A stretch of DNA of 64,000 nucleotides from Gammaproteobacteria bacterium (GTDB taxonomy: Bacteria; Pseudomonadota; Gammaproteobacteria; SZUA-152). Every line of letters begins with the position of its first letter. Position 1 is the first letter of the stretch. Where the stretch lies: positions 1 through 64,000 of the forward strand of contig DROS01000069.1 of assembly GCA_011321815.1 (NCBI GenBank), written 5' to 3'. Under the pieces are notes generated by a model. That model was not told the DNA's origin. It ran no database searches and was given only the letters and a program-made list of their open reading frames with translations. This document shows positions 9,176 to 39,358 of the stretch, piece by piece. The translations under genes were made by a program, and so were the position numbers.

Positions 9176-10939
9176 ATGAGCAGTCTGACCGAAGTCAAAA
9201 TACCCAACATCGGCGATTTCGACGGTGTTGAAGTGATCGAAATTCTGGTAGCCGCTGGCGATCCTGTTGCGGTGGAAGATTCGCTGATATCCGTGGAGTC
9301 TGACAAAGCCACCATGGAAATTCCCGCACCACAGGCGGGTGTGGTTAAAGAAGTGCTGGTATCTGTGGGCGACACCGTGGCCGAAGGCAGCACGATCCTG
9401 ATGCTGGAAACAGAAGAATCCGGGGCGTCTGCGCCAGCGGGCAGCAGCAAACCGGCGGTAACTGAACAAGTGCCAATAGCAGCCCCAACGGCAAGCCAAT
9501 ACAGCGGTGATGTCGATATCAGTACACAGGTTGTGGTGCTGGGTTCCGGTCCCGGTGGTTATACCGCAGCATTCCGTGCCGCAGACCTGGGTCTGAGCGT
9601 GGTGATGATCGAGCGCTACGAAAGCATCGGCGGTGTGTGTCTCAATGTAGGCTGTATTCCCTCCAAAGCGCTGTTGCATACTGCGCAGGTGCTCAATGAA
9701 GCGGCAGAATTTGCTGACATCGGCGTCAACTTCAACAAGCCCGAAATCGACCTTGATAAACTGCGTGCGCACAAAGACCGTGTGCTGGGCAAACTCACCG
9801 GCGGTCTCAAACAGCTGGCCAAGCAACGTAAAGTGAACATTGTGCATGGCTACGGCAAATTCACTTCCGCCAACACTATCAAAGTGGAAGCAGAGGACGG
9901 CAGCAAAACCGTGGTGGGTTTTGACAATTGCATTATCGCCGCTGGTTCCAGGGTTACCAAACTGCCCTTTATTCCCTGGGATGATCCGCGGGTAATGGAC
10001 TCCACCGACGCACTGGAAATTGAAGAAATCCCGGAGCGACTACTTGTCGTTGGAGGCGGTATCATTGGTTTGGAAATGGCCACTGTGTATGATGCGCTGG
10101 GCGCCAAAGTCACCGTTGTGGAACTGTCCTCCGGCCTGATTCCGGGCGCTGATCGTGACGTGGTGCGCCCGCTGGAACGGCGCATTAAAAAACGTTACGA
10201 AAATATTTATTTGAACACCAAAGTGACCGCCATTGAAGCCACTGAAAAAGGCATGTTGTGTTCTTTTGATGGTAAGAAGGCGCCGGAAAGCGATACCTTT
10301 GACCGTGTGTTGGTATCCATCGGGCGTAGCCCCAATGGTTTGCTGATTGATGCCGATAAGGCAGGTGTGTCAGTGGATGAGCGTGGTTTTATTGCTGTGG
10401 ACAAACAACAGCGCACCAACGTGAATCATATTTTTGCTATCGGCGACATAGTCGGTCAGCCCATGCTTGCACACAAGGCCACCCATGAAGGCAAAGTGGC
10501 GGCAGAAGTCATCAGTGGTAAAAAGACTTTCTTTGATGCCCGCACCATTCCTTCGGTGTGTTACACCGATCCTGAAGTGGCATGGATGGGCAAGACCGAA
10601 GACGAATGCAAGGCGGAAGGTGTGGCCTATGAAAAAGGCGTGTTTCCCTGGGCTGCCAGTGGGCGCTCGTTATCACTGGGACGCGATGAAGGCATGACCA
10701 AAGTCTTGTTTGACGACAATCATCGCATCATTGGTGCAGCGATGACCGGCCCCAATGCGGGTGAATTGATTGCCGAGGCGGTGTTGGCGCTGGAATTGGG
10801 TGCTGATATTGAAGATATCGCCCTGACCATTCACCCACACCCAACCCTGTCGGAAACATTCAACTTTGCCGCCGAGGTAGCCGAAGGAACATGCACCGAT
10901 ATTTATGCACCCAAAAAAGCGGCGAAGAAAAAGAAGTAA
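9176..10939 (+). CDS. lpdA: Dihydrolipoamide dehydrogenase with N-terminal lipoyl domain
   Basis: FAD enzyme (E3) that reoxidises dihydrolipoyl groups and reduces NAD+. An extra lipoyl domain occupies residues 1-80 ([13 protein letters not shown], Lys about 44), then an Ala-rich linker, the FAD-binding [17 protein letters not shown] (about 122), the redox disulfide in [13 protein letters not shown] (about 152-163), the NAD site [12 protein letters not shown] and the C-terminal active-site HPHPTLSE. The 587 residues exceed plain E3 (about 475) because of the lipoyl domain, an arrangement known in several proteobacteria. The lysine-rich tail (AAKKKK) is unusual. Confidence 0.96.
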
Positions 10940-10960
10940 ATTTTATGTATCGGTCAACGG

Positions 10961-11377
10961 ATGATGAGTAAACAAAAACCATCAGGTGTATCATCCACTG
11001 ACGATTATTTTTTGATAAAAGACGGTGTGGAATATTCAGGGGCGCACTTATTGATTGATTTGTGGGGCGCCTCCCGGCTGGATGATCGTCCGTATATCGA
11101 AGAAGTATTGAAGCATTGTGTCACGGCCTGCCATGCAACGCTGTTGCATATTCATTTACACCAGTTTTCAGAAAGCGGCGGTATTTCGGGCGTCGCCGTG
11201 CTCGCAGAGTCGCATATCAGCGTACATACCTGGCCGGAACGTAACTATGCTGCCTTTGATGTATTTATGTGCGGGGCAGCCACGCCTTCAAATGCCCCTG
11301 CTGTTTTAAATAAAGCATTCAGGCCGAGTGAGCTGAAAGTAAAAGAAGTATTACGTGGATATAAAGAAGACGGATAA
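10961..11377 (+). CDS. speH: S-adenosylmethionine decarboxylase, pyruvoyl type
   Basis: Makes decarboxylated AdoMet, the aminopropyl donor for polyamines. The self-cleavage site is visible in LAESHISVHTWPE: the chain is cut between Glu83 and Ser84, and Ser84 becomes the pyruvoyl group. The conserved catalytic Cys lies in MCGAATPSNA (about 104). The 138 residues fit the short bacterial class. ATG 10961 or 10964 can start it. It begins 21 bp after lpdA with no obvious terminator, and the aminopropyltransferase-like gene follows, so it looks like the first gene of the next functional block. Confidence 0.9.
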   Translation: MMSKQKPSGVSSTDDYFLIKDGVEYSGAHLLIDLWGASRLDDRPYIEEVLKHCVTACHATLLHIHLHQFSESGGISGVAVLAESHISVHTWPERNYAAFDVFMCGAATPSNAPAVLNKAFRPSELKVKEVLRGYKEDG

Positions 11378-11442
11378 AATGTCGTTATCTCGTCATTCCG
11401 GCAGTTAACCCCGACACAGCGTAACCTTTCAGGGTTCAAAAA

Positions 11443-13155
11443 ATGAACCAGCCCCTATCGAAATTATCATTGCGTCAACATGACTTTATGTTGTTTGCCA
11501 TCATGGGCATTCTGGCAGGTTGTGGGCTTATTTATGAATATTTGTTATCACATTATGCGGGGCGTATTTTAGGCGCGGTTGAACAAGTCATTTTTGCCAT
11601 GATCGGCGTGATGATCGTAGCAATGGGGCTGGGTGCTTTTGCAGCACGTGTTTTTAAGTCGTATTTTAATGCTTTTGTCTGGCTGGAAGTCAGCATCGCA
11701 TTCATTGGCGTCAGCTCGGTATTAGTGCTGGCCGCGACAACGGCGCTGGCAAATATACTGCCGCAAATTCTGATGGAAACATTTTTGTTGCCGCCTGATT
11801 TGATTCCTCGTGGTGGCATGATTCTCTGGGCGCATAAAATAGCCGCCATCATGCCTTACGTGGTCGGTTTTATTTTAGGATTTTTTATTGGTATGGAAAT
11901 CCCGCTGATTGCCAGTATCCGGGAAACTATTTATGGTGAGCATGTTGAGCATAATGCTGGGTCGGTTTATGGTGCGGATTACATTGGAGCGGGTATAGGC
12001 GCGGCCGTTTGGGTTCTGTTTATGCTGAGTTTGCCGCCCACCACTGCTGCGGTAATCACCGCCAGTGTCAATCTGCTGGTTGGCTTGCTGTTTTATGGCA
12101 TATACCGAAAACGTATTCGTTTGGGTGGCTGGGTAGTGGGCACACACCTCCTGATAGCCGGCGTTGTCACGGTGATTGCCATGAAAGGCATAGATTGGGA
12201 TAACGCCATGGAAGACTTGCTCTATAAAGACAAAGTCATTTTCAGTTATAACACCGAATATCAGCATGTCACCATTACTGAACGTATTATGGACCCGGCC
12301 AAACCAAAAATTGTTTCGATGTTTATTAATGGCCGCTCACAGTTCGCCAGCAACGATGAGATTATTTACCATGCAATGCTGGTTGCGCCAGTCATGCATG
12401 CCTCTGCCCGCCATGATAATATTTTGATTATCGGAGGAGGAGACGGCCTGGCGCTACGTGATGTGTTGCGCTGGCAGCCACAGTCGGTTGATCTTGTTGA
12501 TATTGATGCGGCCATCGTTGAGTTTTTTACCACGCCTCGCCTTAACAATGGGAGAGTCATCAATCAGGCACTGCTGGATTTAAACCAGTATGCTTTCAGT
12601 GATCCCCGGGTGCAGACACATTTTGGTGATGCTTTCCTTAAAGTGGATGAGTTTATTCAACAGCAACGTTTATATGATGCCATCATCGTGGATTTACCTG
12701 ATCCCAATCATCCGGATCTGAATAAACTATATTCCGCCCGTTTTTACGCCAAACTTAAAACATTATTAGCCGGGGATGGTGCTATGGTGGTGCAGTCCAC
12801 ATCACCTTATCATGCCAAAAATACCTTTTTATCCATTGGTAAAACGGTGAAGTACGCAGGCTTTATGCATGTGGAGCAATATCACCACAATGTTCCCAGT
12901 TTTGGCGAATGGGGCTGGACTATTGCCACTAAAAACGGTGTTTCCGCCAAGGCCCGGCTGGCACAAAAAGACCGCCTGGCGGTGAACGATGGCTGGTCCA
13001 CGCGGGGTGTTTTATTGGCGGCATTTGAGTTCAACCGACATTTTTTTGATCAGCTGGAAAGCATAAAAGTGAACAGAATCAACAATCAGGTGGCCTATCA
13101 GTATCATAAGGCCGACTGGGAAAAACAGCAGGGCATATATATTATTGATCAATAG
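11443..13155 (+). CDS. Membrane-anchored spermidine synthase-like aminopropyltransferase
   Basis: An N-terminal domain of about seven hydrophobic segments (residues 15-240) is fused to a class I methyltransferase-fold aminopropyltransferase domain (about 270-540). The latter has IIGGGDGLALRDVLRW, VDLVDIDAAI and the acidic loop IIVDLPDPNHPDLNKLYS; YQHVTITE matches the start of the SpeE fold. Soluble SpeE is about 290 residues, so this 570-residue form is the membrane version. The acceptor amine cannot be read from the sequence. It lies behind the AdoMet decarboxylase gene, which would supply its donor. Confidence 0.8.
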   Translation: MNQPLSKLSLRQHDFMLFAIMGILAGCGLIYEYLLSHYAGRILGAVEQVIFAMIGVMIVAMGLGAFAARVFKSYFNAFVWLEVSIAFIGVSSVLVLAATTALANILPQILMETFLLPPDLIPRGGMILWAHKIAAIMPYVVGFILGFFIGMEIPLIASIRETIYGEHVEHNAGSVYGADYIGAGIGAAVWVLFMLSLPPTTAAVITASVNLLVGLLFYGIYRKRIRLGGWVVGTHLLIAGVVTVIAMKGIDWDNAMEDLLYKDKVIFSYNTEYQHVTITERIMDPAKPKIVSMFINGRSQFASNDEIIYHAMLVAPVMHASARHDNILIIGGGDGLALRDVLRWQPQSVDLVDIDAAIVEFFTTPRLNNGRVINQALLDLNQYAFSDPRVQTHFGDAFLKVDEFIQQQRLYDAIIVDLPDPNHPDLNKLYSARFYAKLKTLLAGDGAMVVQSTSPYHAKNTFLSIGKTVKYAGFMHVEQYHHNVPSFGEWGWTIATKNGVSAKARLAQKDRLAVNDGWSTRGVLLAAFEFNRHFFDQLESIKVNRINNQVAYQYHKADWEKQQGIYIIDQ

Positions 13156-13157
13156 TT

Positions 13158-13188
13158 GACATAATATGTCCCGACGACATATTATGTC
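13158..13188. promoter_or_regulatory. Perfect 13-bp inverted repeat before the DUF2170-pspA genes
   Basis: GACATAATATGTC (13158-13170) and its exact reverse complement GACATATTATGTC (13176-13188) are separated by CCGAC. Each arm is itself a near-palindrome (GACAT-N3-ATGTC), so the site can be read as two adjacent operators or as one hairpin. There is no T-run, so a simple terminator is less likely. It lies 25 bp before the ATG at 13214. Confidence 0.6.
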
Positions 13189-13213
13189 TCATCCCTTGAG
13201 TAGCGGAGGAAAT

Positions 13214-13639
13214 ATGAGCACTGAAAAGTTAGAGCAATTGATGAAGGGTTTGGCTGGAAAGCAATTGTCAGATGGTGTCGGTTTGTCGATAGAAATGTTT
13301 GATGCCGAAAATGCAGTGGCCTGCATCAAGGTGGAGGACCGGGAGGAGTTTCCCATTTATATGACGGTCGACGAAGGGCAGATACTGTGTATCAGCTATT
13401 TGTTTGGTGATGAACAGGTTGATCCAGACAAGCGTGCGGCCATGGTGGAAGCCATGTTGATGATGAATGTGTCCATTCCATTATCGGCATTTTCGAAAAT
13501 TGGAGATCAGTACATTATGTTTGGTGCATTGTCACCTGCTGCCAGTACTGATGAGCTATTACATGAAATAGAGTTGCTCAGTGACAATGTGTTGGAAGCC
13601 ATTGAAGCAATATCGGATTATTTAAAGGAGGCTGCATAA
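13214..13639 (+). CDS. DUF2170 family protein (YjfI-like)
   Basis: Acidic cytosolic protein of 141 residues resembling E. coli YjfI. Family function is unknown. GLSIEMFDAENAVACIKVEDREEFP and a Met-rich middle (AAMVEAMLMMNVSIPLSAFSK) are visible, with a helical C-terminus. The start at 13214 is set by GGAGGA at 13205-13210; the frame is open to 13166, but those codons cover the inverted repeat. It is 3 bp upstream of the PspA homologue, the same order as yjfI-yjfJ-yjfK. Confidence 0.8.
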   Translation: MSTEKLEQLMKGLAGKQLSDGVGLSIEMFDAENAVACIKVEDREEFPIYMTVDEGQILCISYLFGDEQVDPDKRAAMVEAMLMMNVSIPLSAFSKIGDQYIMFGALSPAASTDELLHEIELLSDNVLEAIEAISDYLKEAA

Positions 13640-13642
13640 GCC

Positions 13643-14338
13643 ATGGGTATATTTAACAAATTATTGACCGCAGTACGCGGTGGAGCAACAGAAGTGGGCG
13701 AAGCGATTGTTGATTCGCAGGCCATTCGTATTCTGGAACAGGAAATACGTGACTCGAAAAAAGCCCTGCACGATGCCAAAACCGGTTTGACGTCGATTAT
13801 GGCTGAAAAGATGGGTGTTGATCGGAAAGTAAAGGATCTTACTGCGAAAATCACTGAGCATGAGGCCTATGCCATGCAGGCGATGGAAAAAGGCGATGAA
13901 AATCTGGCGCTGGACATCGCAAACAAAATTGCCGAATTTGAGCATGAGTTGACGATTCAGCAGGGTATACGCGATGGTTACGATTCCAAAGTGGCCAGCC
14001 TGAAAAAAATGATCCGCCAAAGCGAACGAAACATTCAGGCAATGGATCGTGAAGTATCGGTGGTGAAAACGACAGCAAAAGTGCAAAAAGCCAATGATCT
14101 GGCTTCGGCCAAATTTTCGGGCTCAAACTCATCGTTACGCAGTGCCACAGAGTCACTGGAACGTGTCAAGGCACGCCAGCAGCAACGTGAAGATCAGGCA
14201 GCAGCGGCAATGGAGCTGCATGCAGACGAAAATGGTGATGACTTGCAAGCCAGATTGAAAAATGCCGGTATTGTTGATTCAGGCAGCTCAGGTTCATCGA
14301 TTCTGGACAGGTTGAAAAAACAGAAAGAGCAGAGTTAG
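13643..14338 (+). CDS. PspA/IM30 family protein (YjfJ-like)
   Basis: Protein of 231 residues predicted to be almost wholly helical coiled coil, typical of PspA/IM30 (ESCRT-III superfamily) proteins that polymerise on the inner membrane and protect it under stress. The N-terminus MGIFNKLLTAVRGGATEVGEAIVD gives an amphipathic helix, followed by long helices (about 25-190) and a disordered tail ending SSILDRLKKQKEQS. No pspF or pspBC gene is present, so this is the YjfJ-type subgroup embedded in a DUF2170/DUF2491/DUF350 cluster. Confidence 0.85.
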   Translation: MGIFNKLLTAVRGGATEVGEAIVDSQAIRILEQEIRDSKKALHDAKTGLTSIMAEKMGVDRKVKDLTAKITEHEAYAMQAMEKGDENLALDIANKIAEFEHELTIQQGIRDGYDSKVASLKKMIRQSERNIQAMDREVSVVKTTAKVQKANDLASAKFSGSNSSLRSATESLERVKARQQQREDQAAAAMELHADENGDDLQARLKNAGIVDSGSSGSSILDRLKKQKEQS

Positions 14339-14340
14339 TC

Positions 14341-14982
14341 ATGGGTTTGTTCAAATCGTTACTGGGCGGTGGCGATAAGTCACCGCCCCCTCGTGCCATC
14401 GAATCGCCAAAAGATTTACGGCCAGGGGATATGCTGAAAATGGAGTTTGCGGAGCAAACGCTGATATCCGGGCAGACATTAAAAGTGTCTGAGCAGGTGT
14501 TTTATGACATCAGTGCGGTAGAAAACTGCAAAACGGTTTCTATTCTGGAAGGGGTTGGCCAGCGTGTCTTGTTATCCGTCAGTACGGTTAACCCGGACCG
14601 GCCTCTGGAGGTGGCGCTGGCCGTCCTGCCGGAAAAAGTATTTGAAATTTTTGGTCGTGATCAGTTTGTTGCCATTTTTGACGAGCCGGACAATACGGAT
14701 CATCGAATTCATCGTCAAGCCAATGTGGCGTTGAACGAACTGCAAGGGTTTGTCGGGGGCTCTTATTTTCAAGAGCGCACCAACGAGGCCTATCGCAGCA
14801 AAAAAGACTGCCGCAATGAAGCATTAACAGATGCCGACTGGGAGGGGTTTGATTATAAATTACTGGTCACTGATGACAGATGTCATGCGGTACGCATTGA
14901 AGTATTTGATGGTGGCCGTACCGATGTGTATTTGATTGCTTATTTGGCGCTCAATAAAGTGGAAGAGTATTGGCTTGCGTAA
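14341..14982 (+). CDS. DUF2491 family protein (YjfK-like)
   Basis: Soluble protein of 213 residues matching the DUF2491 family (E. coli YjfK), of unknown function. The N-terminus MGLFKSLLGGGDKSPPPRA resembles that of the adjacent PspA homologue and may form a membrane-touching helix. The body is beta-rich and acidic, with LRPGDMLKMEFAEQTLISGQ and ending in VEEYWLA. It starts 2 bp after pspA and overlaps nothing. Tight spacing on both sides indicates one transcript and probably one complex or pathway with PspA. Confidence 0.78.
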   Translation: MGLFKSLLGGGDKSPPPRAIESPKDLRPGDMLKMEFAEQTLISGQTLKVSEQVFYDISAVENCKTVSILEGVGQRVLLSVSTVNPDRPLEVALAVLPEKVFEIFGRDQFVAIFDEPDNTDHRIHRQANVALNELQGFVGGSYFQERTNEAYRSKKDCRNEALTDADWEGFDYKLLVTDDRCHAVRIEVFDGGRTDVYLIAYLALNKVEEYWLA

Positions 14983-14983
14983 T

Positions 14984-15304
14984 ATGACAGCAAAGAAGAA
15001 AATCCCCAGTGCCTGGACAAAATCAGATAAAAATATTCGTGCCGTTCAGGTGATATTTGAATTGGAGCAGGAGCAATTCAAGGCGGTGCGCATGAAGGCC
15101 ATTGAGAAAAATTTAAGCCCGTCAGATTACATCCGTGATATCGTTGGTTTGCCACGAAAAAAACCCATACGACCCAGGCTGAGTATTAGTTTGTCGGCTG
15201 AAGATTACGAAATACTGGCCCGGCGTTATCGGTTAACGGCAGATATGAAAGAGAAAATCCGCGAGAAAATAAAAGAGGAGTTGGTGAGTACGACAAAAAA
15301 ATAA
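14984..15304 (+). CDS. Small basic protein of unknown function
   Basis: Protein of 106 residues, strongly basic, starting at ATG 14984 one base after the DUF2491 stop. The middle (EQFKAVRMKAIEKNLSPSDY then IRDIVG) resembles a ribbon-helix-helix unit, and a similar strand-helix pattern appears at LSISLSAEDYEILARRYRL. A DNA-binding or nucleating role, for instance autoregulation through the palindrome at 13158, is a guess. I do not recognise a named family. Its end is 22 bp before the channel gene. Confidence 0.55.
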   Translation: MTAKKKIPSAWTKSDKNIRAVQVIFELEQEQFKAVRMKAIEKNLSPSDYIRDIVGLPRKKPIRPRLSISLSAEDYEILARRYRLTADMKEKIREKIKEELVSTTKK

Positions 15305-15326
15305 GTCACCGGCTTAACCCACCTTT

Positions 15327-16421
15327 ATGCACTTAATACTACGTTACTTTATAAAAAAACGTGACAGACTAAAACACGGCGCGCAGCATAACTTACTTCA
15401 CTCGATCAGAAACTCCTGTTTTCTGTTGGTGGTCATTTTCATTTTACACATTGGTTTTATGGTGCATTACGAGGGGCTGGGTATCGGGGATGCCGCCTGG
15501 TTGACATTCACCACAGCCACCACAGTGGGTTATGGCGATATATCAGCCAGTACCACTCAAGGGCGCATTGCCACTGTTTTTCTGATTTATCTGGGCGGAA
15601 TCTTTATATTGGCCAAAGTGGTCGGCGACTATTTCGATTATCGTTTTGCGGTGCGTGAGCAAAAAACCAAAGGTCATTGGAGTTGGGATATGAATCAGCA
15701 TATTGTTATTTTAAATACCCCTTCGTATTCTGGTGAGCGTTATCTGCAACGCTTGATAAAACAATTCAGAGCAACAGATCATTATAAGGATACGGTTATT
15801 TACCTGCTGACCCGGCAGTTTCCGCAGGGCTTGCCTGATTTTATCACCCAGCTTGATAATGTGGTGCATTACAATGGCAATTCCAGCAATCCTCAAGACC
15901 TGGTGGCTGTCTGTGTGGCACAGGCCCGGGATATCATTGTGCTGGCGAAAGATGAAAACGATGAAAGTTCTGATGGCCGCACGTTTGACATTCTGCATCG
16001 TTTAAAAGATTTGAACGTCAAGGCCAATATCCTGGCAGAATGTGTTGAAGACAGCAATCGTAAGCGGCTTGAGGGTGCAGGGGCCTGTGTTGTTATACGC
16101 CCGATTCGCGCATACCCTGAAATGATTGTGCGCGCCTTTGATGCCCCGGGTTCAGAGCGAATCATCGAAAACATGTTCAGTAGTGAGGGAGACGAATACC
16201 GGCGCTACGATGTGGAAATAAGCGGGATGGACTGGTGTGATGTGGTGGCGCGTTTAATCACGCATGATGCAGGTATTGCGGTGGCCTATATTGACCGTCA
16301 TAGTCAGGAGCTGGTGTATAACCCGCCTGCGCGTGCAAAGCCGGACATACAGGCATTAATCACCATCAGCAAGGATAATAACATGCACAGCAATGATGAT
16401 GTGAGAGCATTGATTTCATAG
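15327..16421 (+). CDS. Two-pore-helix K+ channel with cytosolic RCK (TrkA-N) domain
   Basis: Residues 28-110 contain two membrane helices flanking a pore loop with the selectivity filter TTATTVGYGD (about 62-71), the signature of K+ channels. The cytosolic part (about 120-364) has a TrkA-N-like Rossmann fold (HIVILNTPSYSGERYLQRLI, later VCVAQARDIIVLAKDENDES) that usually gates such channels through nucleotides or ions. The first Rossmann glycine motif is degenerate (NTPSYSG), so the ligand may not be NAD. Membership in the PspA block suggests a link to membrane potential, which is inference. Confidence 0.85.
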   Translation: MHLILRYFIKKRDRLKHGAQHNLLHSIRNSCFLLVVIFILHIGFMVHYEGLGIGDAAWLTFTTATTVGYGDISASTTQGRIATVFLIYLGGIFILAKVVGDYFDYRFAVREQKTKGHWSWDMNQHIVILNTPSYSGERYLQRLIKQFRATDHYKDTVIYLLTRQFPQGLPDFITQLDNVVHYNGNSSNPQDLVAVCVAQARDIIVLAKDENDESSDGRTFDILHRLKDLNVKANILAECVEDSNRKRLEGAGACVVIRPIRAYPEMIVRAFDAPGSERIIENMFSSEGDEYRRYDVEISGMDWCDVVARLITHDAGIAVAYIDRHSQELVYNPPARAKPDIQALITISKDNNMHSNDDVRALIS

Positions 16422-16430
16422 GAGTAAACA

Positions 16431-17360
16431 ATGCAGACAGATAAACTAAGGATATTGACATGTTCGCTTGGGCTCTTGCTGGTAATCGCCTTGTTATCAG
16501 CTTGTGGCAATCGTTTTGAGGAACAATTGCGTGAAGCTCATAAAAATGCGCAATCCAGCCTGGCGTATTTAAAAGATCAGCTGGATGCCCGCGAATTAAG
16601 CAATGCCTTGTTAATTGACAAGTATGCCAGTGCGCTGATTCAGCAAAAGCCGGATTATAGGGATATCGCAACATTATTGAAAAAGGAGGCGACATCTCAA
16701 GGTAAAGCTTATACCACATTGAGTCAGCGGCTGGCGGCAGTCAATCTGACACCGACCGATACGGAAACGGCCTCCAGTGGTCTACAGGAATTACAATTAA
16801 TCAATTCAGCCGCCGATGTTTACGAATTCAACAACAGTCTGGCGGATGTGGTCAACACGCTTGCTGCATTGTCTGATGGCCAGCTGGCGGTGATTAATGT
16901 ACCTGCTTCACAGCGGGCCAGTGCCCAACAGGCCAATGCGCTGGTGGGTAATCCAGCTTATGGCAGCTGGACCCAAGGGAGTAACGGGCAATCTTTTTGG
17001 GCCTGGTATGGCATGTATTCTTTGTTTAATAACGTGCTGGGCATGAATCGCTATGATTACGGTTCATGGTCATCGCGTCCCCATTACAGTTATTACGGAA
17101 ATTATGGCCGCAACCGTTGGGGTTCAGATGCCGATGTTACCCGAAATCAGAAGTTAAGCCAGCGTTATCCCAGCAAATACAACAAGCCCAGTGCCGCCAC
17201 TAATGCTCGTTATGCAACGACGGCTAAACGTTCATCCAGCTATGGAGGGAAACAGTCAAAATCGTCATCAAAGTCATCCTCATCCCGCTACAGCTCGTAT
17301 GGCTCCAGTAGTCGAAGTTCGTCATACTCAGGTGCGCGCAGCTCACGCTCAGGCAAATAA
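16431..17360 (+). CDS. Lipoprotein with Ser/Tyr-rich C-terminal region
   Basis: Protein of 309 residues with a signal peptide and lipobox LLSACGN (Cys25), so it is lipidated and envelope-anchored. The N-terminal half (25-165) is helical. A middle segment around FWAWYGMYSLFNNVLGMNRYDYGSW is aromatic, and the last 70 residues are mainly Ser, Arg, Tyr and Lys in low-complexity repeats. It occupies the place held in E. coli by the YjfM/DUF1190 lipoprotein, which also has a Ser-rich tail, but I see no clear sequence match. No enzymatic motif is present. Confidence 0.65.
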   Translation: MQTDKLRILTCSLGLLLVIALLSACGNRFEEQLREAHKNAQSSLAYLKDQLDARELSNALLIDKYASALIQQKPDYRDIATLLKKEATSQGKAYTTLSQRLAAVNLTPTDTETASSGLQELQLINSAADVYEFNNSLADVVNTLAALSDGQLAVINVPASQRASAQQANALVGNPAYGSWTQGSNGQSFWAWYGMYSLFNNVLGMNRYDYGSWSSRPHYSYYGNYGRNRWGSDADVTRNQKLSQRYPSKYNKPSAATNARYATTAKRSSSYGGKQSKSSSKSSSSRYSSYGSSSRSSSYSGARSSRSGK

Positions 17361-17370
17361 GGAAACAAAA

Positions 17371-18276
17371 ATGTTCATGGATTTTGTTAATGTAGACATA
17401 GGTTTGGCATCTTATTATCTGGTGGATTTCCTGATTGCAGTGGCATTATTGAGTGCGATGCGTTTTTTTGCCGGCTTGGTTGGCAATGTGTCTGCCACAA
17501 AAGAAATTTCACATAATGACAACAAGGCTTTTGGCGTGTCACTGGCAGGGGCTATGGTTGCCGTCAGTATTATGCTGATGGGGGTCGTGTCCGGTGATGC
17601 CGGTTATAATCTGGCTAATGAAGTATTGACGGTCATTTTATTTGGTGTCATTGGCATAACGCTTATGTGGTTGACGCGCATTGCTTTTGATCGTATCTCA
17701 TTTCCCGGATTATCAATTCACGATCAGATCATGAAAGGCAATATGTCTGCCAGCATCATTGATGCCTGCAATATGATTGCGACGGCCATTATTATCAAAG
17801 GGGCCATGGTCTGGGTCGATGGTGGCATGGCAATGGCCATTTTTGCAGTAATCATCAGCTTTATCGCATCACAAATTATCATGGCTCTGGCAACGTTGTA
17901 TCGTGTCAAAGTGTATGCAAAACGCCACAGCCATAAGGGAAAACAGTTGCACGAAGCGATTGAAGAAAACAACGTTGCTCTGGCGCTGCGTTTCAGTGCT
18001 TATCGCGTAGGCATTGCCATCGCGGTAAGTGCAGCTTTCACCGCAGTGGAATATGAGGCCGATGCCTTTCTGTATGTTTTTATGCTGTGGTTTGCTGTTG
18101 CATTGGTTTTATTTGTTTTATTGACCTTGATTGCCATTGTGATTCGGCACGGTGTGTTACCCCGCATCAATATCGGGGAAGAAGTGGGTGAACAAGGCAA
18201 TATTGCTGTGGGTGTCATTGAAGGCAGTATTTATATCGTCGTTGGCCTGTTGTTGTCCGGACTCATCGGGGCCTGA
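17371..18276 (+). CDS. Double DUF350 inner-membrane protein (YjfL-like)
   Basis: Protein of 301 residues with about eight hydrophobic segments arranged as two repeats of the DUF350/UPF0719 unit: residues 12-140 and 155-300. Each repeat has a conserved ADNKA/NNVAL-type turn (HNDNKAFGVSLAGAMVAVSI, EENNVALALRFSAYRVGIAI). E. coli YjfL has a single unit. The start ATG 17371 follows GGAAAC; the frame extends further upstream inside the lipoprotein gene but codes for no conserved sequence. Transport or channel activity is assumed for the family but unproven. Confidence 0.78.
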   Translation: MFMDFVNVDIGLASYYLVDFLIAVALLSAMRFFAGLVGNVSATKEISHNDNKAFGVSLAGAMVAVSIMLMGVVSGDAGYNLANEVLTVILFGVIGITLMWLTRIAFDRISFPGLSIHDQIMKGNMSASIIDACNMIATAIIIKGAMVWVDGGMAMAIFAVIISFIASQIIMALATLYRVKVYAKRHSHKGKQLHEAIEENNVALALRFSAYRVGIAIAVSAAFTAVEYEADAFLYVFMLWFAVALVLFVLLTLIAIVIRHGVLPRINIGEEVGEQGNIAVGVIEGSIYIVVGLLLSGLIGA

Positions 18277-18293
18277 TTGTCATCAAAAATGCA

Positions 18294-18959
18294 ATGATCC
18301 TTACACCCCGGCAGCAGCTCATCCTTTTTATTGTTGCCGCCTTTATTGTTGATTATTTACCGTTTATCAATTTACCTTTTTTGTGGAGTGAAACCTTTTT
18401 TCATGAAATAAGCCATGGGCTTGCGGCGCTGTTGACGGGGGGGGCGATTCGTAACATCACTTTGTCTTTTGACGGCTCCGGCGTATGTATCACCAGTGGT
18501 GGCTCACGTTTTTTAATCAGTTTTTCAGGCTATGCAGGTAGCGCGCTGTGGGGTTTGCTTATATACAGTGTTGCAGGTGTCCTCTCCCAAAAAAATGCAA
18601 AGCTCATGGCTGGAGTAATGGTGCTGATGCTGGGAGTGACTTTGCTGTTGTGGGCGCGAGATATACCAACCATTATCATTCTGTTGATTTTATTACTGAT
18701 GTATGCTTTGCCGTTAGTGAAATCGTCATGGGTCAGTGTTAAGTTTTTTATTCAGTTAGTCGGTGTTTTTGTCATGCTGGACGCCATCCGCAGTCCATTG
18801 TATTTACTGGATGGCCGTGACCTTGGCGATGGTGCCAGCTTGGCGCAGTTAACCGGCCTGCCAGAGTTTTTTTGGGTGGTTTTATGGTTTGTCATTGCCG
18901 TTGGCTGTTTGTACCGTCTGTGGGCAAAACCCAGTGAAAATAAAAAAGCTACGGCATGA
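18294..18959 (+). CDS. M50B-like integral membrane metallopeptidase
   Basis: Hydrophobic protein of 221 residues with about six membrane segments and the zinc motif HEISH at residues 37-41 inside the first part of the chain, as in site-2-protease-like M50B families. SGYAGSALWGLLIY after it matches the conserved Gly-rich second helix of these proteins, and LLDGRDLGDGASLAQLTGLP near 170-190 supplies the late acidic segment. Substrates are unknown. It is the last intact gene of the PspA block, 17 bp after the DUF350 gene. Confidence 0.7.
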   Translation: MILTPRQQLILFIVAAFIVDYLPFINLPFLWSETFFHEISHGLAALLTGGAIRNITLSFDGSGVCITSGGSRFLISFSGYAGSALWGLLIYSVAGVLSQKNAKLMAGVMVLMLGVTLLLWARDIPTIIILLILLLMYALPLVKSSWVSVKFFIQLVGVFVMLDAIRSPLYLLDGRDLGDGASLAQLTGLPEFFWVVLWFVIAVGCLYRLWAKPSENKKATA

Positions 18960-34660: not shown

Positions 34661-37600
34661 ATGAGTGCTGCCAAACAACTGCTGGATCACAAGTTGCTGA
34701 GGTCGTTGTCGCCGCTGTGCGACCTGTCGCCTGATATGTTGGCGGAACTCAGTGGTAAATCACGAGTGACACAGGTGGTGGCTGGCGCAACAATTTTCAA
34801 ACAGGGTGAGCGGGATCACCGCACCCTGTACCTTGTGGCAGGCAAACTGGAACTTACCGACGCTTCGGGAAAAACCACCAAATTAACCGCCAACAGCAAG
34901 CAGGCGCGTCAGCCGCTGGACCCCGAATCACCCCACACCGTCACTGCTGTTGCGAAGACACCAGTTTCTCTACTGAATATTGATACCGACCTGTTGGAAA
35001 TGTTGCTCAGCTGGGGGGGTAAACAACAAACCTACAAAGTATCCAGTCTGGCCGTGGAAGAAGAGGAAGAAGATACCGACTGGATGAGTCGATTCCTGCA
35101 ATCCAAGGTTTTCCTCAAGCTGCGTGCCGAAAATATTCAGACCATGATGATGCGCATGGAAGAAATCAAGGTGCGCGCAAATGAAGTCGTGATCAATCAG
35201 GATGACGAAGACGACAACTATTACATCATTGCCAAGGGCCGGGCGAAGGTTGCCCGCCGGGTAGCCCCAAGTGCGCCGCTGATGAAGCTGGCGATTCTGA
35301 CGCCGGGGACCGGTTTTGGTGAAGAAGCGTTGATCAGCAATGGCAAACGCAATGCCTCAGTAACCATGATGGAAGACGGTACGCTGATGCGGCTGTCGAA
35401 AAAGGATTTTATCAGCCTGCTGGTCACTCCTATTCTGCAATATGTGTCGTTTGATGAAGCCAAGGCCATGGCAGGGCCAGACGTGCAATGGCTGGATGTG
35501 CGCAAGCTGGCTGAATACTCCCGTGGCAGCCTGCCCGGCGCGCGCAACATTCAGCTGGCTGAAATGCGCTTACAACTGCGCAAGCTTAACAAATTGCACA
35601 AATATATTGTTTTCAGTGACGGTGGCAGTCGTGCAGCGGCGGCGGTATTTTTGTTGAATCAGTATGGTCTGGATGCCTTTGTATTGCGTGATGGTCTGAA
35701 TGCCCTTTCAGCGTCCGCGCTGGAAAAAAAGGCAGGGAAGCAGCCGTCCGCTGCAACAACACAAACACCTGCACAAACAAAACCGCAAGCCGTACCGACG
35801 CTGAAACCGGAAGATAATGTGGTCAGCCTGCATGGCGAAACCGCTGCGAGCAATGCAGAAAGTGATGGTCGTGTGGAAGCGCTGATGAGCAAGGCCAAGC
35901 AGCGTGTGCAACAGGAAATGCAACGCACCCAGGCGGCGGACAACGCCCGCAAACAGGCGTTGTCCGAGGTGGCGCGACTCAAGGAAGAAGCTGAAATTGC
36001 ACGCAAAAAAGCAGAAAACGAAGCGCGGCGTGCGGCAGATCTGGCACGCAGCGAGGCGGAGCGTGCAGCGGCGCAAAAGCGGGCTGATGATCTGGCTGCC
36101 GAGCAGGCGGAGCGTGAAGCCGCTGTACGGCGGGCAGAAGAGGAAACTGTGCGGGCTGAGCAGGCCATGCAGGCACAGAAAAAGGCCGAAGAAGAAATTG
36201 AGCGCCTAAAACAGGATGCCGCTGCAGCGCGCCGCGATATGGAGGCGCTGGCGCGTCAGTCGGCAGATAAGGCGAAAAAAGAGGCGGAAGAGGAAATTAT
36301 TCGCCTTAAGGCCGAAGCCGAAATGGCGCGTCGGCGCGTTGAAGAGCAGGCCAGACTGGCTGCCGACGCAGCGCGTTCGGAGACAGAACGCAAGATGGCT
36401 CAGCAGCGTGCTGAAGAAGTCAGTCGCCATCAGCGGGAAGCTGAAGGCGCTTTGCAAAAAGCCGAAATCGAGGCCATGCGTGCGCAACAGGCTGAAATGG
36501 CACGGCAACAGGCCGAAGATGAGGCCGAGCGCATGCGCACCCGTGCCGAAGAAACCCAGCGCGAAATGGAAGAACAGGCCCGTTTGGCGGCGGATCAGGC
36601 GCGTTCCGAAGCCGAGCGTGATGCCGCCCGACAACGTGCCGAAGCTCTGGCCGAGCAACAGGAAGAGCTGGAAAATGCCGTGCGCAAGGCTGAATCAGAA
36701 GCGGCGCGCGCGCAGGCAGCCGAGAGTGAAGTTGAGCGTCTGACAAAACTGGCAGATGAGGCACGACTTCAGGCCGAAGCACAGGCGCGCATGGCCGCGG
36801 ATCAGGCCCGCAGTGAAGCCGAGCGTGAAATGGCGGCGCAACGTGCGCAGGAAATGGGGCGTTTGCAGGCTGAGCGGGAGGAAATGGCAAGCAGGGCCGA
36901 AGATGAGGCGCGCCGGACCCGGGCTGCTGAAGAAGCCCGTTTACAAGCTGAAGCCGAAATCCAGCGGTTGAAAGTTGATGCCGAAGTGGCTCGCATGCAG
37001 CTGGAAGAACAGGCACAACGTGTTGCCGATGCGGCGCGTTCTGATGCAGAACGGGAGGCAATGCGTGCACAGGCTGCCGAAGAGGCGCGTCTGGAAGCAG
37101 TGCATGAGCTGGAGCGCCTGGAAGCTGAAACAGAGCGGACGCGTTTGGCCGCCGAAGCGCAGGCACGTCTGGCAGCAGATCAGGCGCGCAGTGAGGCAGA
37201 GCGCGCGGCAGCCAGTCTGCGCGCCGAAGAACTGGCTCAACAACAGGCCCAATTGGAAGAAATTGCCCGTCGAGCCGAGGAGGAGGCGGCTCGCGCGGAA
37301 GAGGCTGATGCTGCACGCCAACGGGCCGAAAACGAGATTATCCGGCGTCAGGCTGAGGCCGAGGAGGCCGAACGACGTGCGACCGAAGAAGCGAATCGTG
37401 CCCGTGAGGCTGAAGCGGCCCGCCAGCAAATGGAAAACGAAATGGCGCAACTGCGAGCTGAAGCGGCAGCGGCGCGTGAGCAGGTGGAAAAACAGGCAAG
37501 GTTGTTTGCGGCGGCACAAAAAATTGAGGCAGAAGAAGCGCAGAAAAACAGTTTGGCAGCGATGGATGCTGAGCGTAAGAGGCGTGAAGCTGCCGAAGTG

Positions 37601-39358
37601 GCTGCACAACAACAGGCGCAGCGGCAGAGAGAGGTCGAGGCGGCGGCCGAACAGGAGCGTGTGGCCAGTGCGGAAGCAAAACGCCGTAAACAGGAAATGG
37701 ATGCTGCTGCCCGCGTAGCCAGAGAAGAGGCGGTGCGGGCGCAACAGGTTGCCGAAAAAATGCGTCAGGAGGCGGAAGAGGAGATTAAACGCCTGAAAGC
37801 AGAGGCTGAAGCCTCGCGTTTGCAGGCTGAGCTGGAGCACAAACGCTCGGTTATTGCTGCGCGGCGTGAGGTGGACAAAGACAAGATCAAGCAGGCAGCC
37901 CAGGCCAAGGCAAAAAAGGCCGCCGCTATTCAGCAACGCAGAAAAGCAGATGCGGGTAAAGCACGCCGGGCCCGCGAAGCACGCGAGGCGGCGCTAAAGG
38001 CGATTGGCAAAAATGACGAGAGTCTGGATGATTTTATGGATCTGGAGGCGGCGGCGGAAGAAATTGCCGAAGTGGAAAGCGCCATCGTTGTGAATGAACG
38101 GGAAATTGCCGAACGTGCCAAAGCCCGCTCCAATCTGATTGATCCCCGGGAAGTGATGAAGGTCGAAAAGCGGGAACAAAAACGACAATGGGTATCGGAC
38201 GATTTTATTTGGGAGGCAACGCTGGGGTATCGTGATGACCCACATGTGGACGCCATTGGTTCGCCGGCAGACTCTGTCGGTGTTGAAAATGAGCGTAACC
38301 AAAAGGCAGAAAAAATTGCCGAGGAAAAAAATGCGAGACAGAGATCAGTTGCACAAAATCCTTCAGCGGAAGCAGATGATAATCCGGCGGCACAAAAGCC
38401 GTTGTTTGAGACACAGGAAATCAATCGGTCGATTCGTCCACAACAGGATGTGGTGACGCGAAAACCGAAACGTAGCCTGAGTGCACGGTGGATGGTGAGC
38501 GCTGCGCTGTTTTTGGTTGTTATTTCCGGGGTGGGCTGGTTTTATCTTTCCGGTGATGATGCATCGGGAAAATTGAAGGCCGTGGTGGATCAGGGGACAG
38601 AGACACTGAGTGAAATTACTCACAAGGTAACTTCGAGTATTGGTGAAATAGGCCAGTCTGAGCCCGAAGCATCTGTTGCCAGTGAAACAGATCAGTCTGA
38701 ACCTGGAACACCTGCCGGCTCCGATGTGAAAAATGCCAAGAGTGAAGAGGCTATGGCGCGCTTACGTGAACGCTTGGCGTCGATCAAGGCCGAGGCCGCG
38801 CGAAAAGCGGATGTGAGAGCGAAACCTGTGGTGGTACCTCCGCCACCAGTGGCTACAACACCTGCTGTAGCAGAACCTCCCGTAGTTGAGGAGCCCCCTG
38901 TGGCTGAGGTGTTCATGGAAGCATCACCCATTCCGGATGCCCGGCCGGAAGAGCTGGCAATAACAACAGAAGAACAGGCGGTGGAAGTGGAAGAAGAGGT
39001 CGTGCTTGAGACAGTTGATGATGTGATGAAAGCGCTGAATGCGCCAGAGGCTAATGCATCAGAGATTGTTGTTGAGACATTGGAGCCTGAAATGGCAGTG
39101 GAGGCCGAGGCCATTGAGCCTGCTGAAACGGCAGAGCCCGAAATAACGGATGCTGTGAGTGCAGACAAAGTCAGCACAGTGGAATCGGCGGGCAGTTTGC
39201 CTGTCACTGCTGGTGAGACGGTTGTTGATGCGCCTGTTACCGGAACCGTTGCGGAAACGGCAGTCCCTGTTGCTGCCACGAGTGATGTTGTTGCGAAAGA
39301 ATCAGAGGATGCGGAGGTGTTGGTGGAAGAGCCAGTGGAGAGTGTTGTCACCCCTTAA
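34661..39358 (+). CDS. Giant cNMP-binding/rhodanese/coiled-coil membrane protein
   Basis: 1565 residues. Domains in order: two cyclic-nucleotide-binding-like folds (about 18-130 and 144-262, second with GFGEEALISNGKRNAS), a rhodanese fold (about 265-350), a long Ala/Glu/Arg-rich coiled coil (about 405-1140), a linker, one membrane helix near 1276-1296 (MVSAALFLVVISGVGWFYL) and an acidic Pro/Val/Glu-rich C-terminus of about 265 residues, probably periplasmic. The rhodanese Cys is replaced: the active loop reads FSDGGSR. The coiled coil has irregular repeats of ARLAADQARSEAER. It looks like a scaffold or sensor tethered to the membrane; I know no named family for the whole. Confidence 0.8.
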   Translation: MSAAKQLLDHKLLRSLSPLCDLSPDMLAELSGKSRVTQVVAGATIFKQGERDHRTLYLVAGKLELTDASGKTTKLTANSKQARQPLDPESPHTVTAVAKTPVSLLNIDTDLLEMLLSWGGKQQTYKVSSLAVEEEEEDTDWMSRFLQSKVFLKLRAENIQTMMMRMEEIKVRANEVVINQDDEDDNYYIIAKGRAKVARRVAPSAPLMKLAILTPGTGFGEEALISNGKRNASVTMMEDGTLMRLSKKDFISLLVTPILQYVSFDEAKAMAGPDVQWLDVRKLAEYSRGSLPGARNIQLAEMRLQLRKLNKLHKYIVFSDGGSRAAAAVFLLNQYGLDAFVLRDGLNALSASALEKKAGKQPSAATTQTPAQTKPQAVPTLKPEDNVVSLHGETAASNAESDGRVEALMSKAKQRVQQEMQRTQAADNARKQALSEVARLKEEAEIARKKAENEARRAADLARSEAERAAAQKRADDLAAEQAEREAAVRRAEEETVRAEQAMQAQKKAEEEIERLKQDAAAARRDMEALARQSADKAKKEAEEEIIRLKAEAEMARRRVEEQARLAADAARSETERKMAQQRAEEVSRHQREAEGALQKAEIEAMRAQQAEMARQQAEDEAERMRTRAEETQREMEEQARLAADQARSEAERDAARQRAEALAEQQEELENAVRKAESEAARAQAAESEVERLTKLADEARLQAEAQARMAADQARSEAEREMAAQRAQEMGRLQAEREEMASRAEDEARRTRAAEEARLQAEAEIQRLKVDAEVARMQLEEQAQRVADAARSDAEREAMRAQAAEEARLEAVHELERLEAETERTRLAAEAQARLAADQARSEAERAAASLRAEELAQQQAQLEEIARRAEEEAARAEEADAARQRAENEIIRRQAEAEEAERRATEEANRAREAEAARQQMENEMAQLRAEAAAAREQVEKQARLFAAAQKIEAEEAQKNSLAAMDAERKRREAAEVAAQQQAQRQREVEAAAEQERVASAEAKRRKQEMDAAARVAREEAVRAQQVAEKMRQEAEEEIKRLKAEAEASRLQAELEHKRSVIAARREVDKDKIKQAAQAKAKKAAAIQQRRKADAGKARRAREAREAALKAIGKNDESLDDFMDLEAAAEEIAEVESAIVVNEREIAERAKARSNLIDPREVMKVEKREQKRQWVSDDFIWEATLGYRDDPHVDAIGSPADSVGVENERNQKAEKIAEEKNARQRSVAQNPSAEADDNPAAQKPLFETQEINRSIRPQQDVVTRKPKRSLSARWMVSAALFLVVISGVGWFYLSGDDASGKLKAVVDQGTETLSEITHKVTSSIGEIGQSEPEASVASETDQSEPGTPAGSDVKNAKSEEAMARLRERLASIKAEAARKADVRAKPVVVPPPPVATTPAVAEPPVVEEPPVAEVFMEASPIPDARPEELAITTEEQAVEVEEEVVLETVDDVMKALNAPEANASEIVVETLEPEMAVEAEAIEPAETAEPEITDAVSADKVSTVESAGSLPVTAGETVVDAPVTGTVAETAVPVAATSDVVAKESEDAEVLVEEPVESVVTP

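Follow-up and report, generated by a model that had tools for sequence, protein, structure and literature searches.

A conserved PspA-type envelope operon pairing a membrane aminopropyltransferase with a lipoprotein that ends in lysine: a possible case of protein aminopropylation

Operons built around a dyad of DUF2170, a CesT/Tir-type protein, and PspA have been grouped by Ravi et al. 2024 (PMC11237479). The passages of that paper which deal with its group 2, exemplified by Shewanella AAN56744-AAN56747, place alongside this dyad a spermidine-synthase domain fused to an N-terminal transmembrane (TM) domain, an eight-TM DUF350 protein, a lipoprotein, DUF4178 and sometimes a ribbon-helix-helix (RHH) protein, and, with reference to Li et al. 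2019, already allow for 'aminopropylation of other substrates'. That earlier study (Biochem J 476:2579) reported a linkage of S-adenosylmethionine (AdoMet) decarboxylase, an MFS-spermidine-synthase fusion and DUF350, for which a non-polyamine role was proposed. In this work, we analyze an operon of ten genes at positions 10961-18959 of a 64,000-nucleotide stretch of contig DROS01000069.1 (assembly GCA_011321815.1, Gammaproteobacteria bacterium), hereafter the window, whose host is a marine methane-oxidiser-like bacterium. The operon has the same enzyme pair and DUF350 as the linkage of Li et al., and it shares with group 2 the elements listed above, its DUF2170 and PspA genes being adjacent (13166-14338); it is a variant of the group 2 type to which an AdoMet decarboxylase (AdoMetDC), a K+ channel with an RCK domain and an M50B-like peptidase have been added. 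Its lipoprotein is orthologous to that of the Shewanella loci, S. oneidensis MR-1 being a laboratory strain with an orthologous operon, and no library model named Ctha_1186, the novel lipoprotein domain of Ravi et al., was matched. While this type of operon is already published, the lysine ends found on the partners of its membrane aminopropyltransferase (APT) are the new element here. We tentatively propose, on the basis of sequence, that APT may aminopropylate the C-terminal lysine of an exported partner within a conserved envelope module.

The ten open reading frames (ORFs), all on the + strand, form one uninterrupted co-directional run with successive gaps of 65, 10, 3, 2, 1, 22, 9, 10 and 17 bp, bordered by lpdA at 21 bp and by argG at 298 bp; the single direction and the gaps of mostly less than 25 bp given in the original prediction are borne out, the widest internal gap being the first. 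A scan with an APT alignment, using one genome per species, yielded 80 loci, mostly from Gammaproteobacteria, and the gene content of the module was scored with home-made profiles over the fetched loci, genus relatives included. The profiles matched 94 APT, 83 DUF350, 80 lipoprotein, 75 DUF2170, 73 PspA, 73 DUF4178-type, 61 RHH and 57 channel genes, and only 18 for AdoMetDC and 12 for M50B. Over approximately 80 independent loci, a core is kept of APT, DUF2170, PspA, the DUF4178 protein, RHH, the lipoprotein and the double DUF350, often together with the K+ channel; AdoMetDC is a member in a minority of loci, and M50B is largely a local addition. Two sub-blocks recur in variable order, namely lipoprotein-DUF350 and DUF2170-PspA-DUF4178-RHH-channel. 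In Shewanella (L049, L100, L103), the place of the RCK channel is taken by a different, longer channel that lacks an RCK domain, and hence the channel function may persist where the gene does not. A reduced block, consisting of channel, lipoprotein and double DUF350 with neither APT nor PspA at the locus, is seen in L175 and L176.

The linkage was also read in the reverse direction, by searches seeded from the lipoprotein, the channel and APT in 184 evenly drawn Gammaproteobacteria genomes. The lipoprotein was found in nine of the 184, adjoining the double DUF350 in 9/9, and the full-length APT subfamily in eight, all of which contain the lipoprotein, although G078 carries the two on separate contigs. 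The K+ channel occurs in 8/184 genomes and lies within the module in five of the eight. Within the order, M50B is present in 9 of 24 genomes and is module-linked in eight of these nine; one further family has M50B in the module (L177). Since searches from the lipoprotein, the channel and the peptidase lead back to the same module, the linkage of these three to DUF2170-PspA elsewhere, on which the original prediction had made its case depend, was found, and the ten genes are a conserved module and not a chance assembly. A membrane-stress role of this module would be in keeping with its composition.

The enzymatic center of the module is gene 2 (11443..13155), which encodes APT (NF002956, polyamine aminopropyltransferase, 568 bits with a cut-off of 472; Spermine_synth, E 4e-32). 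Eight N-terminal helices (residues 7-259) are predicted to precede a spermidine-synthase-like domain (264-507), whose predicted structure was matched by Foldseek to spermidine synthases (E 7e-15). The motifs by which SpeE binds decarboxylated AdoMet (dcAdoMet) and performs catalysis (GGGDG, DxxDP) are present as GGGDG and DLPDP, can be aligned with solved spermidine synthases, and include residues (the G331-G335 region, D417 and D420) that are invariant across 30 relatives. Gene 1 (10961..11377) encodes an AdoMetDC of class 1b, the SpeD/SpeH type (PF02675, E 2.2e-33; TIGR03330, 127 bits with a cut-off of 76), with the processing motif ESH-ISVHTWPE and a later Cys-Gly; it is the sole PF02675 match in the genome.

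Gene 8 (16431..17360), defined by alignment, structure model, C-terminus statistics and codon use, encodes a Ser-rich lipoprotein with the lipobox LLSAC, for which no Pfam family was matched and whose fold found no significant match in the PDB. The structure model consists of a confidently predicted helical N-terminal part and a disordered Ser/Arg-rich tail ending in ...SSRSGK, with the terminal codons for the conserved Gly-Lys end and the stop at 17352..17360. Lysine is the last residue in 79/79 full-length lipoproteins of the scan, as well as in 8 found independently; among 29 non-redundant sequences (<60% identity) it is last in all 29, and Gly-Lys forms the end in 28. Lysine is nearly absent from the 18 preceding positions. 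The 3' ends of these genes make use of both codons for Lys, all four for Gly and all three stops, and thus selection acts on the amino acid. The next gene, gene 9 (17371..18276), encodes the double DUF350 membrane protein (PF03994, E 1.8e-38, in two stretches).

Lysine ends recur in divergent APT loci, of which 43 were collected by plasmid and genome searches from Pseudomonadota and one Gemmatimonadota plasmid. Here the partners are single-TM proteins of 48-100 residues ending in THK, GHK, GRVK, GSGK or RGGK, long lipoproteins ending in SGK, or a DUF4178 protein that itself carries a TM segment and a GGHK tail, and SPFH or TelA proteins replace PspA; the Lys-ended partners belong to no Pfam family. 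Loci L262, L263, L264, L222, L227 and L228 document an arrangement of a Burkholderia-like group, in which APT and an FAD oxidoreductase are oriented divergently to SPFH-DUF4178-microprotein-speD, and the presence of this FAD enzyme in Novosphingobium and Gemmatirosa as well. By a strict rule, a Lys-ended exported or TM partner or DUF4178 tail is present in 38/43 divergent loci, and two more recognized by eye (L267, L025) bring this to 40/43, while lysine is the last residue in 4/119 of the other genes of these clusters. Because the partner search was biased to lysine, each gap was also represented by its longest TM ORF, whatever the last residue. In gaps of up to 450 bp between cluster genes, 13 of 14 such ORFs end in lysine, the exception being an unrecognized DUF350; over all internal gaps the figure is 14/21, the remainder being mostly other genes in long gaps, and in flanking gaps 1/26.

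A comparison with spermidine ligases is instructive as to why the last residue might be lysine. The DUF1190 lipoproteins (n = 36), nearly all of which lie beside a YgiC/YjfC-type ligase, end in GG (28), GS (7) or SS (1), and YgiC and YjfC are reported as peptide-spermidine ligases in the title of Pederick 2023, as cited in PMC12568646. Judged from these termini, the last residue goes with the kind of enzyme, lysine with APT and Gly/Ser with the spermidine ligase, DUF350 being common to both. An amide ligase needs a carboxylate whereas an aminopropyltransferase needs an amine, and hence the last residues differ as the chemistry would require; chemically, glycyl-spermidine and an aminopropyl-lysine that follows glycine would closely resemble each other. 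A literature search that left out most subscription journals found no paper on C-terminal lysine aminopropylation, no earlier description of a conserved C-terminal lysine over unrelated partners, and nothing on DUF4178 beyond Ravi et al., whose relevant passages mention neither the lysine end nor the substrate. One candidate source on DUF350 (PMC12730115) was discarded, as it contains DUF3509 and not DUF350.

In the mechanism proposed here, AdoMetDC would supply dcAdoMet, and the last lysine of the lipoprotein (lysine 309, the proposed acceptor) would receive the aminopropyl group on its side-chain amine from the membrane-anchored APT, on the inner side of the membrane and prior to or alongside export. 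Spermidine synthase is offered an aminobutyl chain by putrescine, and the side chain of lysine is this same chain; the product would hence be a protein-borne, spermidine-like cationic tail with which an exported protein ends. Handling or anchoring of the tailed protein would fall to DUF350 and action at the inner membrane to DUF2170-PspA, with the K+ channel adjusting the flow of ions and the RHH protein as regulator; together, as we infer, PspA, the channel and the regulator would couple tail modification to the membrane state. A broader version, which we hold a little more loosely, is that the MFS-type spermidine synthase fusions of Pseudomonadota and beyond could be protein aminopropyltransferases that add a polyamine-like tail to the terminal lysine of dedicated partner proteins, whether exported or in the membrane, that Enterobacteria could arrive at a nearly equivalent tail through ligation of spermidine to a glycine at the C-terminus, and that DUF350 could serve both. 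Several observations weigh against aminopropylation of the lysine. The APT domain is predicted to be cytosolic and the tails of both the lipoprotein and the TM partners are predicted to lie outside, and the modification must therefore come before or with export. Of the two genomes with the reduced block, G078 has APT on another contig, but in G198, which is 98% complete and has channel-lipoprotein-DUF350, no APT was detected. The count of 40/43 comes from a search that looked partly for lysine itself, and three divergent loci are without a Lys-ended partner: one lacks the remaining cluster genes, one is an outlier, and for at least one the end of the contig is the cause. Finally, the conserved lysine may be a recognition element instead.

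The most familiar product of such enzymes would be a free polyamine, and the original prediction had envisaged a system that makes polyamines, which the gene content of the window genome (99% complete) does not support. Its only aminopropyltransferase is the membrane APT, its two decarboxylases of the alanine-racemase fold (the ODC/ADC fold) are LysA and an exosortase-associated enzyme, and no arginine, ornithine or lysine decarboxylase of the aspartate-aminotransferase fold (fold-I) was found; across these two pyridoxal phosphate (PLP) folds, the genome contains none of the three enzymes. With no other aminopropyltransferase and no putrescine-forming decarboxylase of the tested folds, free spermidine is, by gene content, an unlikely product of APT. 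The idea that the operon protects the membrane by producing free spermidine or a related polyamine from an imported diamine draws on the intact motifs of AdoMetDC and the aminopropyltransferase, and putrescine import or a pyruvoyl arginine decarboxylase (PF01862) could supply the diamine; given the missing decarboxylases of the tested folds, and the fact that a module-less species of the same genus (G010) has SpeA, a long SpeD and a soluble SpeE, we consider it very unlikely. Fusions of this kind reportedly fail to complement an E. coli spermidine synthase mutant.

The lack of a diamine supply, over the same two folds, would equally suit an APT that aminopropylates a membrane lipid such as phosphatidylethanolamine, much as MprF treats phosphatidylglycerol with lysine, making the membrane less anionic, with the Lys-ended lipoprotein as a partner and not the substrate. 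The fusion of the catalytic domain to eight membrane helices and the membrane-acting partners PspA or SPFH point the same way, but lysine as the last residue of several unrelated partner architectures is then left unexplained, and no lipid-binding feature speaks for it; we consider this account improbable. Short C-terminal motifs are common sorting signals, and the lysine might likewise stay unmodified and serve as a signal for recognition or sorting, with DUF350, the export machinery or a protease as its reader and APT acting on another substrate. The retention of lysine in two genomes without an adjacent APT (L175, L176), one of which carries APT elsewhere, agrees with such a signal, although the last residue follows the enzyme type even though DUF350 is common to both systems; we regard this account as rather unlikely. 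If aminopropylation of the C-terminal lysine is true, it would constitute a new post-translational modification, give a shared logic to several uncharacterised operons, tie PspA-type membrane maintenance to polyamine chemistry, and allow DUF350, DUF4178, DUF1190 and several unnamed small proteins to be read in one way. For the membrane-bound spermidine synthase fusions, which occur widely, the C-terminal lysine of unrelated partners provides a concrete substrate candidate.

The likely arrival of the module is reflected in the relatives. Same-genus species without it have the order aceE-aceF-lpdA-cNMP-binding gene-argG, the gene with the cyclic nucleotide monophosphate (cNMP)-binding domain lying at 5795-6313 in L162 and 9865-10407 in L164, whereas in the window AdoMetDC and the module sit between lpdA and argG. 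An unrooted argG tree splits carriers from non-carriers with a support of 0.99, and the block has a GC content of 46.5% against 50-58% in the flanking genes, with GC at third codon positions (GC3) of 48% against 53-61%. Both the lower GC and the island gain between lpdA and argG that had been anticipated from the window thus find support, the latter in gene order, tree and GC together. A single gain between lpdA and argG is the simplest reading, and loss in the other branch may be an alternative. In G006 and G009, lpdA-AdoMetDC stands apart from APT...M50B-argG, which suggests a later rearrangement, and G011 has a divergent module copy elsewhere in its genome.

The remaining genes of the operon were assigned by family searches, which upheld the earlier labels AdoMetDC, APT, DUF2170, PspA, RCK K+ channel, double DUF350 and M50B but not DUF2491. 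Gene 3 (13166..13639) is DUF2170 of the YjfI/BacA type (PF09938, E 9.5e-31), for which the literature gives a CesT/Tir-like chaperone fold, and gene 4 (13643..14338) belongs to the PspA/IM30 family, YjfJ/BacB type (PF04012, PspA_IM30, E 3.5e-39). Gene 5 (14341..14982) is DUF4178-related, as PF13785 matches 7/25 family members (best 3.6e-7), the window protein itself falling below threshold, and a DUF4178-type protein holds the equivalent position in the Shewanella loci; DUF2491 was rejected, with 0/25 relatives matching and a weak alignment to the YjfK profile over only about 64 N-terminal residues. What had been called a small basic protein, gene 6 (14984..15304, probably starting at 14984), is refined to an RHH-like protein and likely regulator by family alignment and a NikA-like RHH match (9.7e-5) that lies below the Pfam cut-off. 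Gene 7 (15327..16421) encodes a two-TM K+ channel (Ion_trans_2 and Slo-like_RCK; best PDB match MthK, 2e-28) with both the selectivity filter TVGYGD (K+ filter TxGYGD) and the RCK domain. Gene 10 (18294..18959) is the lineage-restricted M50B-like intramembrane metallopeptidase (PF13398, E 1.8e-42), with HExxH as HEISH at residue 37. No anti-phage defence system was detected, the sole sign being an incidental mad2 methyltransferase-fold match on APT.

With regard to expression, matches to a sigma-54 promoter as in bacA are no commoner than chance, and counts of sigma-70 promoters and terminators are within or near those of shuffled sequence. A good sigma-70-like match (TTGACA, 18, TATTAT) lies directly before DUF2170 at 13156-13185, in a match count near chance; it could be an internal promoter, DUF2170 then starting at a later ATG. 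AdoMetDC starts 21 bp past lpdA (10939-10961) and adjoins lpdA in G006 too, although the other module genes lie apart from it there; for these reasons it may share a transcript with the pyruvate dehydrogenase genes. Elsewhere in the window, 34661-39358 encodes a protein of 1565 residues whose N-terminal parts are cyclic-nucleotide-binding-like and rhodanese-like and which has a very long coiled coil of Ala/Glu/Arg; the AT skew at 36-38 kb, strong at 0.40, is due to this protein.

Two known enzymes resemble the proposed APT in function only. MprF, a membrane domain fused to a cationising synthase, adds lysine to phosphatidylglycerol, and deoxyhypusine synthase transfers a polyamine-derived group onto a protein lysine; both differ from APT in fold, donor and target. 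Among operons, bacABCDEF of Pseudomonas aeruginosa, like the window, combines DUF2170 and PspA, and according to its authors there is no spermidine synthase in or near it. The E. coli yjfIJKLMC and ygiBC systems share with the window DUF2170, PspA, DUF350, a Ser-rich lipoprotein and a polyamine enzyme, but the enzyme is an ATP-grasp peptide-spermidine ligase, of which no ORF occurs within 10961-18959, in place of APT, and their DUF350 is single where that of the window is double. Their lipoprotein is of the DUF1190 family and ends in -GG, whereas that of the window ends in -GK and is unrelated: its profile does not align with YjfM, ruling it out as a DUF1190 homologue, and PF06693 (DUF1190) has no match in the window genome. 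In yjfIJKLMC, which is group 3 of Ravi et al., DUF2491 (YjfK) takes the place that DUF4178 has in the window, so that the genes matching E. coli yjfIJKL number three and not four as had been counted. The description of the block as an expanded yjf-type module is accordingly imprecise, the operon belonging to the separate group 2 of the same authors.

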